Assembly: GCA_031261425.1 (NCBI GenBank)
Contig: JAISJR010000052.1
Span: 1 to 64,000, forward strand
Length of the DNA stretch: 64,000 nucleotides
From: Planctomycetota bacterium
GTDB taxonomy: Bacteria; Planctomycetota; SZUA-567
Direction of reading: 5' to 3'
Below, piece after piece: positions 16,279 to 63,972 of the stretch. The stretch's first letter is position 1, and every line of letters starts with the position of its first letter. The position numbers were made by a program, and so were the translations under genes. The notes beneath the pieces were generated by a model that did not search any database, was not told where the DNA came from, and saw nothing but the letters and a program-made list of their open reading frames with translations.

Positions 16279-17854
16279 ATGTTCGGCAACCGTCAACGGG
16301 ACACTTACCCCCCCCCCCCCCGTTTTTGCCAATTCGCTTAAATCATTGAGTTGCAAACGCCGCGTGTTGGCGCTTTTCGCCGCCGCGCTGTTTTCATTCA
16401 ATCCATTCACTCCGCAAGCCCAAACCAACGACTTTACCGACGCCGTCGCCGGTATCGTTATCTCTAATCCCAGCAGTTCTGTCAGTGCGGTTTTAACCGT
16501 TTTCACCGGATTAAAGAACGGAGACAACTCTCCCGCTTCGTTAGGCGATAAAATCAAAGCGGCAAAAGCCATTGCGCCGAATGGTGGGTCGTATTGGACG
16601 GCATTGGCAACCGGTATCGAGACGATTTATACTACTCATGTCGCCGAATTCGGTTCGATGATAGATATGACCGATTCTTTAAACATTTGGATTGACGGTT
16701 GGGGCGGTGGCGAGGATGCTCTAGTAGCACTTGTTAGCAAATTTTCCCATAACGGAACCGCCGCCGAATTCGTCGAATCCGTGCAAAAGATAATCGCGTC
16801 AGGTAGCGCGGACAGCGATATTGGCGGCGGTAAAAACGCCGCGACCGCAGTGGCGTTGGTGCTTGACAGCGTGCAACAATTCAACACCGCGATTGGACAA
16901 CAATTCTGCGACTCCGCCGTTCACGGCGTCGCCTTGAACTCGCTTGCCGGCGGCGGAAGTCGCGCCGCGGCGGGCGGAGCGACCGGTTCCGGCGACCGCT
17001 CGTTAGCCGGTTTTATCAAAGCGTATGGCGGCTTTGGCTCGCAGGACAACTATTCCCGCCACGGCAACCGTTACGCCGGTTCGGATTTCGGCGGCGCGGG
17101 CGTGGCGACGGGCGTCGGCTATAAACTGTCGCAAGAACTCGAACTTGGCGCGTTGTTCGGCTACTCGTGGAATCATTCCGAACAGAAAACGCCGGACGGC
17201 GGCACGCATTCGCTCGGCAACGTTACCGACAATACGTTACGCCTTGGTCTTTACGGTAATTTTACGTGGGACAATTTATTCGTTACGTCGTCGCCGACAT
17301 TCGGCATTCACTTGTTGAACGGCGAGCGAACGGTTGGCGCCAACGAAAAAGCGAAAAGCGACCGCACGGGCTTTGATTTCTCGCTGTATAACCGCGCGGG
17401 TTACACGTTTGCTTTGCCGGCGGAATTTTTCATCACGCCGTCCTACGCGCTCGGAATGACCTATCTGCACGACCCCGAACATCGCGAATACGGCGCGTCG
17501 CCGTCGGTCAAATATCACGATTACGACAATTGGTCGTTGTTGCAGGCGCTTGAGGCGCGCGTCGGGCGGCTGTTCCGCGTGAACGATTGCTTCGCGATTC
17601 TGCCGGAAATTTGGGCGGGCTGGGAACACGAATACCTCGACTCGAACGACGCGACGACGACGACGAGTTTCTGGGGACTTCCCTTGACCAATCAGTTCAA
17701 AGTGCAAGGCGTCGCGCAAGACCGCGCGTTGCTCGGCGTCGGGCTGACGACGCTCATCAAAGACAAATACGAGGTCTCCGCCCGCTACGACGAACGCCTC
17801 TGGGACGGCGGACACTTGTCGATGTTCACGGCGGGGGTGAATGTGAAATTTTAA
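16279..17854 (+). CDS. Phase-variable autotransporter-type outer-membrane protein (frameshifted, off)
   Basis: The start ATG at 16279 has AAAGGAGTGAAAA upstream. A run of 14 C (16308-16321) puts the ATG frame out of register, and translation stops at 16339-16341. With 13 or 16 C the ATG would join the long frame that continues to 17854. The joined product has a signal peptide (basic CKRR, then VLALFAAALFSFN), a passenger of about 170 residues and a C-terminal beta barrel from about 225 (FIKAYGGFGSQDNYSRHG) to a terminal phenylalanine (GVNVKF), as in autotransporter barrels. A TTG start at 16346 could in principle give protein without the tract, but it has no ribosome-binding site. Passenger function unknown. 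Confidence 0.82.
16308..16321. repeat. Poly-C tract (14) in the 5' coding region: probable phase-variation switch
   Basis: Fourteen consecutive C, 29 bases after the start codon. Slipped-strand mispairing at such tracts switches surface proteins in other bacteria. The present length is one base above the in-frame length. Confidence 0.85.
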
Positions 17855-44749: not shown

Positions 44750-45185
44750 CGCGGTCTCCTTGGCGATAAATTCCCCTACTGGTTATCGGTTGGACGCGGC
44801 AATAGATAAGTAATTTTTTTTGGCAATTTTTTCCGGCGAACGAGAGCGGGCGCCGCAATTGCCGTGCCAATAAGAAAACGATGCAGTCGCGTTGCTGAAG
44901 CCGTCAAAAATTTTCGTCTTTTCGGCAAAAAGGCGGGACGAACTATTGCGCCCCCCCCCCCCCCGTAAATTTAATTTCGCGGCAAAAGAAAAAGGGGAAA
45001 AGATTTTTAAGAAAGCGCTTAAAGAGTTTAATTTTTTAAGGATTTGATAAAGAGATAAGTTCTAAACCGCTTAAAACCTTTGCCGCGCTTAAAAACTTTT
45101 ATCCCTTTTGCCGGATTATTCTTTTACGATGATTTTGCCGATAAAGATAGAGCGATAAACTTGCCGTCCTCGGACCGGAAAAAAT
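44750..45185. other. Divergent intergenic region with a poly-C tract
   Basis: No gene is visible. It separates a minus-strand small gene from the plus-strand STAS-like gene, and so should hold promoters for both. It is A-rich from about 44990 and has loose TTAAAA repeats. Fourteen C lie at 44951-44964. Confidence 0.6.
44951..44964. repeat. Poly-C tract (14), non-coding
   Basis: Fourteen C, the same length as the tract at 16308. No reading frame crosses it; it may affect promoter spacing for one of the divergent genes. Confidence 0.7.
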
Positions 45186-46145
45186 ATGGAAGTAAAAATC
45201 ATCCCCAATCAAATCGGCGTGCTGTTTCCCGAAGACACGTTGTATCGGGACACCACCGAGAATTTTCGCGACGCCGCGCAACAACTCTTAAACGAGCCGT
45301 TGCCGCTCATTGTCGTGTCGTTCGCCAAGGTCAAGTCGTTGTTGAGCGACGGCATCCGCACTTTGATTGTCGTCGGCGATATGGTCGCGGAAGCCGCGCC
45401 GCTTAACGGCGTCGAGCGGCAAATGTTTATCACCGATTTGGGGCGGGAAGTGAAATACGCGCTCCACGTGAGCAACGTGTTGTCGTTGGTGAATTATTTG
45501 CCGACGTTAGGCGAGGTTTTGTCCAAATTTAATTTGCGCGAGGAAAATTTCATCACGACCGCGGCGGAAGACGCGGAAACGGTGGAAGCCGTCGCCATGG
45601 AAGAAGTCGCGCCCGCGCCGTCGCCGGTCGCGCCGCCGCCCGTCGCCGCCCCCATTGCCCAAGTCGCCGCGCCGCCCGCCGCGTCCGTTACCGGCGCGCA
45701 AGTCAAACGGCAGGGTGTTTATGCGGATATTTTAGCGAAAGCCGCCCAAAAGGCGGCGGCGAATCCCGCCGCCAAACCGGCAATCAACGCGCCGCCCGCG
45801 ACGAGCGGCACGGCGTCAATTGACCAATTGCGGCGCATCATCAAAGCGCACGTGCCGGGGCGGATTTGTTTGGACGTGTTGCGGATTTTTTTGATGATGA
45901 AAAATGATTTGGTCAGTTTCGACGACATCCAAAAGGCGTTGCACAATATCCCCGCCCAAACATTGAAAATCGAAATTCAGCGGCTAATCACGCGCGGCAC
46001 CTTGTCGAGCGTGGGCGGCGGTATGTATAATTTTTGCGTGTCGGGGGCGATACGGGGACAAATCACCGCCGTCGCCAACGCGCTCAACGACCGCAGTATG
46101 CACGCCGAAGTGCTGAAACTGCTGACCGCGCACGAGAAAAATTAG
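45186..46145 (+). CDS. STAS-like protein with Pro/Ala linker and C-terminal helical domain
   Basis: 319 residues. Residues 1-115 look like a STAS domain (beta strand MEVKIIPNQIGVLF, then LIVVSFAKVKSLLSDGIRTLI), as in anti-sigma-factor antagonists. The usual phosphorylatable serine region is replaced by SLLSDG. Residues 135-210 are Pro/Ala-rich. The C-terminal 100 residues include a possible winged-helix (FDDIQKALHNIPAQTLKIEIQRLITRGTLSSVGGGMY). No strong ribosome-binding site. A regulatory role is inference. Confidence 0.6.
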   Translation: MEVKIIPNQIGVLFPEDTLYRDTTENFRDAAQQLLNEPLPLIVVSFAKVKSLLSDGIRTLIVVGDMVAEAAPLNGVERQMFITDLGREVKYALHVSNVLSLVNYLPTLGEVLSKFNLREENFITTAAEDAETVEAVAMEEVAPAPSPVAPPPVAAPIAQVAAPPAASVTGAQVKRQGVYADILAKAAQKAAANPAAKPAINAPPATSGTASIDQLRRIIKAHVPGRICLDVLRIFLMMKNDLVSFDDIQKALHNIPAQTLKIEIQRLITRGTLSSVGGGMYNFCVSGAIRGQITAVANALNDRSMHAEVLKLLTAHEKN

Positions 46146-59509: not shown

Positions 59510-60796
59510 TTACGCTTTTTGGATTAACACGCGCCGGAACTTTTCACGTCTATTAATAACGGGAATATATCCCTTATCAGCGTAAATATCATAGCCGCTT
59601 TCTAAAACGCCGTTCAATATCGGACGGGCGGATACGGCAAACGGCTTTTTATAGTCGGACGGGATATAGCAATTATCCACCAGCAACATTTTATTATCGT
59701 CATAGCTCTTATCGGCATCGGGAATGTCTTTCAACGGGATTATGGTCAAGTGTCCAAGTTTGGCGCGATTTTTAATCGGCAAATTGCAATACCAATGTCC
59801 CGACGCCTCAACTAATTGGCGTTTCGGATTAAGATATTGGTCAATTCGATTATGCCCCGCCCAAACTTTTTTATCCCTGAAATAATGGATAAACGCATTA
59901 GTAACCGGATTGGCGATGTTTGACACTATTAAAAATTGTTTCCCGCTACCGATAATAAGTTTCCAATAATCACGCGCTTTACTAAATGGCGGATTCGTGC
60001 AAACAATGTCGGTTTCCTCGTTGAGGATTTTCAGCGAAAGCGGGTGGTCGAAAGACCCCGTATATCCTTTCGGCGAAATTGTAATTTCCGTATAGCCGTC
60101 TTTGGTGAAGATATAACCGCTTGTTCCCGCGTTAAACAAATCGACAGCGCCGGAATAATGCGTGCAGATAAGTTTCTTTAAGCCCAAATCGGTGAAATGG
60201 CTGATAAAATAGAGCGCGAAAGCCGATGTTCTGGTTTCGTCTTTCCCGACCGCGTCATCGCAATTACAAAAAACCGTCTTATCGCGCCAAATGCTTTTAT
60301 CATAGCAAGCAATTTCTTTTTCAATGTCTTCATAAAGGGTATAAAACTCGTCGTCATCGACTTTTTGGGCTTTTTGCAATACTTCTTTGCGCGTCAATCC
60401 CCGTTCTTTTAAGGTCGGCGTAATGCGTTTCACGATTTTGGTTAGGGTTTTCGGCGCGGTTGGTTGAATGAAAACTTCTTGCACAAACAACGGACTTTTT
60501 TTGATATAATCGACATATTGGCGGAACAGTTCGTGATTATAGAAGTAGATTTCCCGCGATTTTTCTTCGCGCAGAATGGCAAACCGGTTTTTAATCGCCT
60601 TTTCCATCGGCGCCATATCGCTAACTTGCGCCACGAAAAGATATTCATAGCGATTATCTTTGCTTTTACCGGTCATACGGTTGTATTCGGCGAGGCGGCG
60701 CTCCGTGTCGTTGGTTTTGCCTATTTTACAGCGGGTCGGCTCCCTTGACGCTTGCACGATATAGACAAACTGTCCGGTTTTCGTGGCTTTTGCCAT
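59510..60796 (-). CDS. GIY-YIG domain fused to EcoRI-type adenine DNA methyltransferase
   Basis: 428 residues. N-terminal domain at about 8-100 is of the GIY-YIG (T5orf172) type: FVYIVQASREPTRCKIGKTN, ERRLAEYNRMTG, PMEKAIKNRF. The C-terminal domain (about 130-428) matches EcoRI methylase: DDEFYTLYEDIEKEI, KTVFCNCDDAV, DLGLKKLICTHYSG, catalytic CTNPPFSKARDYW near 263-275, and WAGHNRIDQYL. The gene is visibly richer in A and T than its neighbours, which suggests transfer. No separate restriction endonuclease gene is adjacent. It may be an orphan methylase or a single-chain restriction-modification enzyme. Confidence 0.85.
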   Translation of the reverse strand: MAKATKTGQFVYIVQASREPTRCKIGKTNDTERRLAEYNRMTGKSKDNRYEYLFVAQVSDMAPMEKAIKNRFAILREEKSREIYFYNHELFRQYVDYIKKSPLFVQEVFIQPTAPKTLTKIVKRITPTLKERGLTRKEVLQKAQKVDDDEFYTLYEDIEKEIACYDKSIWRDKTVFCNCDDAVGKDETRTSAFALYFISHFTDLGLKKLICTHYSGAVDLFNAGTSGYIFTKDGYTEITISPKGYTGSFDHPLSLKILNEETDIVCTNPPFSKARDYWKLIIGSGKQFLIVSNIANPVTNAFIHYFRDKKVWAGHNRIDQYLNPKRQLVEASGHWYCNLPIKNRAKLGHLTIIPLKDIPDADKSYDDNKMLLVDNCYIPSDYKKPFAVSARPILNGVLESGYDIYADKGYIPVINRREKFRRVLIQKA

Positions 60797-60826: not shown

Positions 60827-62230
60827 TTAATACCGCGTGGCGCGGAACCACCAGTAGCCGCCGGCGAGCATCATCAACAAATTTGGCGCCCATAGCGAAT
60901 ACCACGGAAACGTGCCGTTGCGCACCGAATTAAACAGCATACTGACGACCATATAAAAAATAAACGCGAAGCCCAAACCCGCCGCGTAGCCAATCGTCGA
61001 GTTGCCGCACCGCGCGCTCGACGCCAGCGGAATCCCCAAAAACGCAAACGACACGCACGCGAACGACATCACCAATTTCACCTGCACTTCCGCCATCGCG
61101 CTAATCAAACTCCAATGCGCCTCTTCGTTTTGCCCGCGCCAATTGCCGATACGATAATCCTCGCTCGCCAACGCCGGACTTTTTACTTTCGCCCATTCCG
61201 CCGCCAACACCGGATTTCTCGCGGCGATTTCCGCCGGCGGCGCGGTCGGGGGCGCCGCCAGCCACGCCGCCACGTTTTCCGGCAAGGCGCGTCCCGTCGC
61301 CGCTTTCGTCAAGCCCGCCCGCAATTCCTGATAAAAACGCTCGCCGGTTTCGGCGACTTTTTTCCGCCGCGCCGCCATTTCCAACAGCAGTTTGTCGATG
61401 CCCATATATTGGACGCGGTGCGGGTCGAAAGTAACTTCAAAGCCGCCGTTCGGGTGGACGAATTTGTCGCGCGTGTGCGGCGTCAACTGAATCGAAGTCA
61501 GATTTTTGTTGATGCGGTTGAACACGATGGCGTCCCAAAAATCGCCGATAATCGACATATTGCCGTCGTCGTCTTCGGTTACTTTGATTTGATGATTTTT
61601 GGCGAGCGTGCGCGTTTCCAAATGCGGATAGCGCGGGTCCCAAACCTCGTCGTCCGCCGCGTTCGCCGCGGGGCTTTTGAACACGGCGAAATCAATGCCG
61701 GTCTGATTGCCCGATTCGCCGTTCCACGCCGAGGGCAGGCGGCAAATCGCCAATGTAATCGAGCCGGGAATTTGAAACGAAAAACTGCCGGGCTTTTCCA
61801 ATTTGGCGTTGATGATGTTGGTGCGGTCGGCGAGGATGCGCCGCTCCATATTGACGACCGACGCGGTCAGCACGTCGGCGTTGAGATACACGGTTATCAT
61901 CGAGGCGAACAGCGCCAAAACCATTCCGGGCGCGCCGAGCCAGAACGGATGAATCCCCGCCGCCTGCGCCGCGACCATTTCGTTGTTCGCCGTGAACCGC
62001 CCGTAGGCGATGAGAATGGCGGTAACCACCGCGAGCGGCAACACCAACCGGCTGATGAGCGGAAAAATATAGGGAATAATTTGCAAGACCGCCGGCATCG
62101 ACACGCCGTTGCTGATGACCTGCGAGCACATCAGCGCGAGAAAGACAAACGAATAAACCGCCAGCGACATCGCAAACGCCTTGCCGAGGTCGGTCAGCAG
62201 ATAACGCGGCAGAGTAAGCAAAAGGCGCAT
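60827..62230 (-). CDS. lptG: LptF/LptG-family lipopolysaccharide export permease
   Basis: 467 residues. Three membrane segments at the N-terminus (about 15-125: FAMSLAVYSFVFLALM, RLVLPLAVVTAILIAYGRF), a periplasmic domain (about 130-370) and three at the C-terminus (about 380-465; LGIPLASSARCGNS). The pattern NNEMVAAQAAGIHPF is typical of the family. It would pair with a second permease and LptB to extract lipopolysaccharide. Which of LptF or LptG it is cannot be told. No lptB is in the window. Confidence 0.87.
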   Translation of the reverse strand: MRLLLTLPRYLLTDLGKAFAMSLAVYSFVFLALMCSQVISNGVSMPAVLQIIPYIFPLISRLVLPLAVVTAILIAYGRFTANNEMVAAQAAGIHPFWLGAPGMVLALFASMITVYLNADVLTASVVNMERRILADRTNIINAKLEKPGSFSFQIPGSITLAICRLPSAWNGESGNQTGIDFAVFKSPAANAADDEVWDPRYPHLETRTLAKNHQIKVTEDDDGNMSIIGDFWDAIVFNRINKNLTSIQLTPHTRDKFVHPNGGFEVTFDPHRVQYMGIDKLLLEMAARRKKVAETGERFYQELRAGLTKAATGRALPENVAAWLAAPPTAPPAEIAARNPVLAAEWAKVKSPALASEDYRIGNWRGQNEEAHWSLISAMAEVQVKLVMSFACVSFAFLGIPLASSARCGNSTIGYAAGLGFAFIFYMVVSMLFNSVRNGTFPWYSLWAPNLLMMLAGGYWWFRATRY

Positions 62231-62281: not shown

Positions 62282-62610
62282 GAAGCGATATTTGATAATT
62301 TGTTCCGACAGTCGCCCCAACGGGGCGAAATATATTAGCCCAGGGTAAGGCGCGCGTTCTTTGCGCCGCCACCCTGGGTGGCGGTTGATTGATAACTCAA
62401 TCCGACAGTTCCGCCGCGCGGTTTTGCGGCGGCAAACGCCGCCTCCGGCGGCGAAAGCGGTTCGCCAAAACACGGCGAACCGTCCAATTGCGGTTGGCGC
62501 TTCGCGCCGTCTTTACCCAGTGGGGCGCGGCTGATAGAACATCGCCGCTTACCCTGGGCTAATATGTTTCGCGCTTTCAGCGCGGCTGTCGGAATAAATT
62601 ATCAAAACAC
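62282..62610. repeat. Large palindrome cluster
   Basis: Outer pair TCCGACAGTCGC/GCGGCTGTCGGA; inner pair TTAGCCCAGGGTAAG/CTTACCCTGGGCTAA; further modules CGCCGCGCGGTTTTGCGGCGG and CCGCCTCCGGCGG. No gene is present in 62231-62816; A/T-rich segments near 62620-62760 could hold the promoter of the next gene. Confidence 0.7.
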
Positions 62611-62816
62611 AACCAAACCGCGTAACTTTCAGTTACGAATTAAAAATCGCGGAATTGGGTTGGCAAATCGCGCTCCCCGAAATTTAGCGCAAAAAATACG
62701 AAAAGGGAGTGCTAAAATCAGAATGGTGAAAAGAATCCTTTTGACTCGACAATAATTCATTTTACCATTCCGCGCTCTTTTCCAGGGTTATTTTTTTTTC
62801 TTAAAGGAGAACGGTT

Positions 62817-63972
62817 ATGGTTCGCGCTCTGTTCGGCAAGGCAACGCTCGCGGTTCTGGTTGGCATTTTTGCGCTGAGTATTTCGGGGGGGGGGGAGTAG
62901 TTTAGCCGCAGATGTCGGCGCCGAAGATTATTGGTACACCGACGGCGGCACCACGCTGAAACACGGTTCCGATTTGTATTTCAGCCGCGCTTTACGCTCC
63001 GCCTCGCAAAAAAGCACCGCCAAAAATGCAGGCAACAAATGGAATGTGTTCGCCGACACCTCGGCCGGCTACACGAAATACGAAAGAGGTAGTTACCAAA
63101 ATGACGAAGACCTCGGCAACTTTAATTTAATGGTCGGGCTTGACCGCCTGTTCGATTTGGGGTGCGGCAATCTCACCGTCGGCGGGTTCTTTGAATACGG
63201 TCTCGGCTACCATTCGGGACGCGCAGAAGCCGATAGAGTGCTAGGGGGAATTATACCCGTCCATGGTTCCCAAAAGAACGAATTTACTTCGCAAAACTTC
63301 GGCGGCGGTTTGTTCGCGCAATACAATTCGCCGGATTTTGGACCGGGGCATTTTTATGCCGACGGCGCGTTCAGAATGGGCGCCGCCACCAATTCGCACA
63401 AAAGTGATTCCGATGCTTCTGTAACTGCCCTGACTACGGGAACTTTGAATTTAGATACAAGATTTGATTCCACACGCCTGTATGTCGGCGCCGACTTCGC
63501 GCTCGGCTATGTCTGGGAACCGGTCGAAAAACTTGCGGTTAATGTTTATGGTCGCGGGTCCTACCTGTTTTTAGGCGACGATAGCGGCACCGTTCACAGC
63601 AACAGTAAAGGGACCGGACCTGTCTTCGGCAATCAAGCATACAACGCCTCAGCGTCCTACGGTTACCGCTTTGATTCGCTGAACTCTTTCCGTCTGCGTC
63701 CGGGCGCGCGGGTTTCCTACGCCGCGACCAATTGGCTCACTCCCTATATCGGCGCCGCGTATGAATACGATTTTACCGAAGCGGACCACTTTTATCAGCC
63801 GACCGTCAACGCTCGCGACGTCCAACCTGACTTGAGCGGAAGCACCGGAATTTTAGAAGCGGGATTGTATTTGCGACCGCTAAAATCGTTAAGCGTCAAC
63901 TTGGGCGCCCAAGGTTACGTCGGCAACCAAAGCGGTATCGCCGGTTTATTGAGCGTGGGCTTGTCGTTCTAA
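62817..63972 (+). CDS. Phase-variable outer-membrane beta-barrel protein (frameshifted, off)
   Basis: The ATG at 62817 follows AAAGGAGAACGGTT and encodes a signal peptide (FGKATLAVLVGIFALSIS). A run of 11 G at 62885-62895 then leads to a TAG at 62898. With 10 or 13 G the frame continues as GGGSSLAADVGAEDYW into the long frame ending at 63972. The mature part (about 340-355 residues) has repeated amphipathic strands (RLYVGADFALGYVWEPVEKL, SLNSFRLRPGARVSYAAT) and ends GLSF with terminal Phe, like an autotransporter barrel. Function unknown. Confidence 0.82.
62885..62895. repeat. Poly-G tract (11) in the signal-peptide region: probable phase-variation switch
   Basis: Eleven G at codons 23-27 of the signal peptide. 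As at 16308, the present length is one base above the in-frame length, so the gene reads as off. Confidence 0.85.

Follow-up and report, generated by a model that had tools for sequence, protein, structure and literature searches.

A poly-G tract as a probable phase-variation switch in an autotransporter-related barrel gene of a planctomycete

In a planctomycete genome, a gene for a putative outer-membrane protein (62817-63972) carries a run of G residues inside its signal-peptide region and is out of frame as assembled. The question raised by this locus is whether the run is a switch and, if it is, whether the gene belongs to a larger set of genes controlled in the same way. We considered the 64,000-nt stretch of DNA in which the gene lies (the window), the assembly to which it belongs (2.62 Mb in 104 contigs, 92.7% complete) and the genomes of relatives. 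In our reading, to which we assign a probability of roughly 0.85, the gene encodes an exported barrel protein related to autotransporters, whose expression slipped-strand mispairing in the G-tract turns on and off, and is a member of a genome-wide contingency set. Slippage at G-runs is very probably how the bacterium, itself probably an insect-gut symbiont, varies its surface. We infer replication slippage as the cause, its reversibility, the role in varying the surface and a benefit against phages, protists or the host from the patterns described below.

The barrel gene and its tract

The gene lies on the forward strand, where a strong Shine-Dalgarno sequence (AAAGGAG, 62803-62809) precedes the ATG start codon at 62817-62819. 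The first part of the signal peptide, or leader (62817-62884), is read in both states and is followed, 68 bp after the start of the ATG, by the tract at 62885-62895, whose 11 Gs were counted from one assembly, with a possible error of one. With 11 Gs the frame ends at the TAG at 62898-62900, after 27 codons. With 10 Gs it gives a protein of 384 aa and with 13 Gs one of 385 aa, both ending at the TAA at 63970-63972; every one of the lengths 8, 9, 12 and 14 meets a stop within 30 codons. In the computed frames, gain or loss of a single G can thus convert the full-length product into the truncated one or the reverse. The segment read only at 10 or 13 Gs (62896-63972) comprises the remainder of the signal peptide and an autotransporter-type beta-barrel; the 358 codons after the tract stay open up to a C-terminal Phe, and the residues conserved in the family are retained. 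The in-frame N-terminus, MVRALFGKATLAVLVGIFALSISGGGSSLAA-D, was judged by eye to be a plausible signal peptide, cut near SLA/A-D.

According to the original prediction, eleven Gs cause a premature TAG and ten Gs restore the frame, together with a signal peptide cleaved near SLAA-D. The frames of 27 codons and 384 aa confirm the former and the signal peptide is plausible, whereas the statement that the gene is switched off holds for the assembled consensus sequence (G11, with the TAG after 27 codons) and is limited to it. Under phase variation, 10 or 13 Gs would let the signal peptide read into the barrel, and the protein would be made and exported (ON); at the other lengths, including the assembled 11, translation would end within 30 codons (OFF).

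Taken alone, the window protein had no Pfam match over the cut-off, falling below that of the Pfam Autotransporter family as well, and a single-sequence AlphaFold model of the barrel was uninformative (pLDDT 28). Fifteen homologous regions from its own genome and from relatives could be aligned with the mature part, nearly all of them reaching the C-terminal Phe. The profile of this family (16 sequences) matched the beta-domain of the autotransporter BrkA (PDB 3qq2) with an E-value of 7.7e-10. The C-terminal barrel can be considered homologous, through the family profile, to the domains of type Va autotransporters, and the earlier description of a surface-protein gene is supported. Pfam Autotransporter (PF03797) was matched by 8 of the 16 family members, the window protein not being among them. 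It shares with the BrkA beta-domain the barrel, by profile match, and the C-terminal Phe, but differs in having no passenger domain: only about 50-60 residues precede the barrel, compared with several hundred in most homologues, and the secreted passenger expected in type Va between signal peptide and barrel is absent. Because of this short stretch in place of a long passenger we filed the protein, on sequence grounds, as a barrel-only relative of autotransporters and did not class it as an autotransporter. Other genes of the barrel family in the same genome also carry tracts where their start was assembled (L079, L056); among the homologues in other genera, a start-proximal tract occurs in L160 only.

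G-tracts across the genome and their flanks

The 2.62-Mb assembly contains about 89 G-tracts of at least 9, where the decay of short runs predicts about one. Over 492 kb of its DNA around the tracts, the counts of G/C runs of lengths 3 to 7 were 5734, 1292, 169, 23 and 5, followed by a second peak at 13; the A/T runs in the same 492 kb had no second peak. The window itself has three G/C tracts of at least 8 (16308-16321, 44951-44964 and 62885-62895) and 18 8-G words, whereas shuffled windows contain 0.86 on average. By shuffling and by run-length decay alike, the tract of the barrel gene is longer than expected by chance. MutS and MutL are both encoded in the genome, and on this ground we rejected loss of mismatch repair as a cause of the tracts; slippage would thus act despite mismatch repair.

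Convincing reading frames contain 57 of the tracts; those near the ends of contigs we regarded as unreliable. In 18 of the 57 the coding strand carries C, and 25 lie within 45 codons of the gene start, where 6.5 would be expected under a uniform distribution. As assembled, with homopolymer counts uncertain by one, 20 genes are in frame, 22 have a tract one too long and 15 one too short. The share in frame is near the one third expected if lengths drift freely, and the spread of frames over the 57 genes is close to random. Among the Pfam classes of the tract genes are autotransporters (some with subtilase passengers), glycosyltransferases, acyltransferases, FkbM methyltransferases and sulfatase-fold enzymes, as well as a Kdo/WaaP-type kinase, an LRR protein, a radical-SAM enzyme, a chemoreceptor, histidine kinases and an FHA-kinase; judged by these classes, the set appears to be concentrated in surface and glycan genes. 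Roughly 60-80 contingency loci would be distributed over surface proteins, glycan-modifying enzymes and sensors, and one clone could hold many surface states.

A second tract gene in the window codes for an autotransporter (16279-17854, forward strand) and has a C14 tract at 16308-16321, near its start, that puts the assembled gene out of frame. That these two surface genes are both off by one had been taken as pointing to a regulated repertoire. A surface gene out of frame within a switchable repertoire is what we found, in a set far larger than two; the shared state had to be rejected as a sign of regulation, since all three frames are about equally common.

Read on the G strand, unrelated tracts have a common 5' flank, AATTTRC. 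Precisely, TTRC precedes 36% and TTTRC 24% of the non-redundant tracts, compared with 1.5% and 0.7% of the runs of 4-6 Gs in the same DNA, and the flank is present at gene starts, deep in genes and in both coding orientations. TTTRC-G9 occurs 29 times in this genome, against 2 for the reversed control, and 7 times against 3 in a sister genome of the same genus; it is almost absent from 58 other genomes, and the viral contigs gave 30 motif matches across the whole collection. The tract of the barrel gene, ATTTC-G11, fits the motif loosely. The motif persists once similar flanks are removed and is absent from runs of 3-6 Gs, and we rejected both shared ancestry and the ordinary context of G-runs as its origin.

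An intergenic family of tracts bears on a further candidate origin. The window contains a stretch of about 173 bp (44894-45066, forward strand) with the C14 tract at 44951-44964, which is upstream of a gene of 319 aa (45186-46145) and is missing from the corresponding position of the sister genome. Its relatives (L055, L064, L070, L086 and L147), several of them upstream of start codons, have in common a TTGC...C-run-GTAAATT core. The arrangement TTGCGC, C-run, G, TAAATT resembles a promoter whose spacer is the tract, and the family is a candidate phase-variable promoter element. A promoter -10 element would fit these stretches but not the motif-bearing tracts that lie deep in coding regions, and was discarded as the general explanation of the flank.

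Tract lengths and gene exchange in the sister genome

The sister genome (G001) corresponds to Planctomycetales bacterium MS499-59, apparently a single cell from a termite gut. Where both flanks of a tract are shared, the lengths in our genome and in the sister genome are 13/11, 10/13, 12/14, 13/14, 14/10 and 9/12. The gene pairs L068/L118 and L082/L119 are out of frame in the former and in frame in the latter. In a joined-flank search for tract-free orthologues of 18 tract loci, 14 had no orthologous match in the sister genome, and there are consequently few empty sites for comparison. One tract (L050) is interrupted in the sister genome. In fact, at two unrelated sites (L050 2900-3120 versus L181, and L055 versus L147) the sister genome reads RC-GGGGGAGGGGG where the other has an uninterrupted G-run; this coincidence may be fortuitous, or it may reflect a frequent route by which tracts become frozen.

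The barrel gene has no orthologue at its locus in the sister genome. This locus is fixed by a conserved neighbour, an LptF/LptG-family permease gene (60827-62230, reverse strand; 97% in the sister genome). The place of the barrel gene, bounded by the LptF/LptG-family gene and a PIN-toxin-like gene pair, is taken there by a B12-binding radical-SAM gene (named from sequence) with a G14 tract of its own. The pair is VapBC-like (antitoxin-like 101 aa and PIN-like 140 aa, named from sequence only; L107 4203-4927, or 64202 onward in window numbering), adjoins the barrel gene, is conserved beside the replaced gene and has similar stretches in L043 and L131. A dispersed repeat (62285-62609) lies directly upstream of the barrel gene; it is about 320 bp long, has inverted arms of 64 nt and gave more than 40 matches in the sister genome. 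A 428-aa protein encoded at 59510-60796 (reverse strand) has an unusual pairing of T5orf172 (GIY-YIG-like) and EcoRI-type adenine methylase domains.

At the 16308 locus the DNA on both sides is about 96% identical in the two genomes, and the leader is the same, with C14 in our genome and C15 in the sister. The autotransporter bodies differ, however: they have 39-44% identity in the C-terminal part and no resemblance ahead of it. A chimeric assembly is unlikely, because the site lies inside contigs of 79 and 123 kb. The leader MVTSNTKQV... precedes three unrelated bodies in our genome, and the signal-peptide region of the 16308 gene follows this leader in L082 and L119. Tract flanks formed 41 similar pairs; in 19 of these the likeness is confined to one side and ends at the tract, in some cases trivially, the tract being at the gene start. 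These patterns point to exchange at or near the tracts, at least in the 16308/MVTSNTKQV autotransporter group.

Such exchange might be the main function. In this alternative the tracts serve chiefly as joints at which recombination swaps the leaders and bodies of surface genes, and frame switching is secondary. The 16308 locus, with flanks, leader and tract common to both genomes and different bodies, would agree with it, as would the one leader before three unrelated bodies, one body type behind two leaders, the 19 one-sided pairs and the common flank motif. On the other hand, several genes keep both sides and change only in tract length, tracts deep inside enzymes have no sign of exchange, rapid evolution can make genes dissimilar next to a tolerant linker even if no recombination takes place, and the one-sided pairs are in part trivial as noted; on balance we consider it unlikely. 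Also improbable, and proposed here tentatively, is that a process directed by AATTTRC makes or maintains poly-G in unrelated genes of one planctomycete genus and that AATTTRC-G(n) is a recombination joint between surface-gene leaders and their bodies; a single site would then serve both for frame switching and for the exchange of gene modules.

Other alternatives concern the barrel gene more directly. The off state could be an assembly error, the real tract having 10 (or 13) Gs and the gene being simply ON. When 11-14 Gs are counted in amplified short-read DNA, an error of one is frequent, and in both genomes the tracts near contig ends are clearly unreliable; however, the barrel tract lies inside a contig of 79 kb, about 37 of the 57 tract genes are out of frame, too many if all were truly fixed ON, and the tract would be switchable even with a wrong count. 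We consider a miscount rather improbable. Long G-runs can also cause polymerase slippage, and transcriptional or translational slippage in every cell would result in some expression from G11, that is, in a constant low level of protein in place of DNA switching between cells. This is improbable, as the DNA lengths differ at many sister sites and about one third of the genes are in frame, the pattern of drift at the DNA level. It is very improbable that we are dealing with a decaying pseudogene and a chance G-run: the gene is out of frame as assembled and lacks an orthologue at its locus in the sister genome, but its 358 codons are open to the terminal Phe, its Shine-Dalgarno sequence is strong, the family-conserved residues are kept, and the same tract design is seen in tens of genes. 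Slipped-strand phase variation is the reading that we prefer. Against it are the presence of MutS and MutL, which should dampen slippage, the absence of a tract from most barrel homologues in other genera, the lack of an orthologue of the barrel gene with another tract length, and the uncertainty by one of homopolymer counts in assemblies.

Relation to known phase-variable systems

Frame-switching G/C tracts at or near the start of surface genes are known from Neisseria, Campylobacter and Helicobacter, in phase-variable genes for outer-membrane proteins and autotransporters (PMC5953494, PMC7168839, PMC2823697). The present genes resemble them in this design and differ in belonging to another phylum, in coding for unrelated proteins and in that, at one locus, leader and tract are conserved whereas the body has been replaced. 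In Campylobacter, C. jejuni has a median of 20 tracts per genome, with 81 repeats in one strain, mostly of 9-10 Gs (PMC6321876). The genome studied here is like the Campylobacter phasome described with PhasomeIt in the same work in having many G/C tracts of at least 8 that belong to genes for the surface and for glycans and lie for the most part within reading frames, an in-frame share near one third and lengths that differ between strains. It differs in its tract peak (13 Gs versus 9-10) and in the share of tracts with C on the coding strand (18 of 57 versus 5%), and has features of its own: a GC-balanced planctomycete genome (55%), MutS and MutL, and the 5' flank AATTTRC.

The barrel gene alone is ordinary and of a known kind; the set stands out by its size, its long tracts, its phylum and its flank motif. 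In the open-access literature we found nothing on point for phase variation with Planctomycetes or termites, most subscription journals being outside this coverage, and no earlier report there of slipped-strand phase variation in Planctomycetota. The large poly-G phasomes described so far come mainly from Campylobacterota and Neisseria adapted to hosts. If our reading is true, surface diversification by poly-G arose in a distant phylum as well, at a similar or larger size and probably in an insect gut. The flank motif, if confirmed, would be a pointer to what makes tracts arise or keeps them stable, a matter on which little is understood in contingency loci. Long tracts, which may mark phase-variable genes or be GC-rich background, are also present in other relatives (G003, G009, G012, G029, G048, G051 and others), each of which has 50-205 G-tracts of at least 9, with flanks other than TTTRC.
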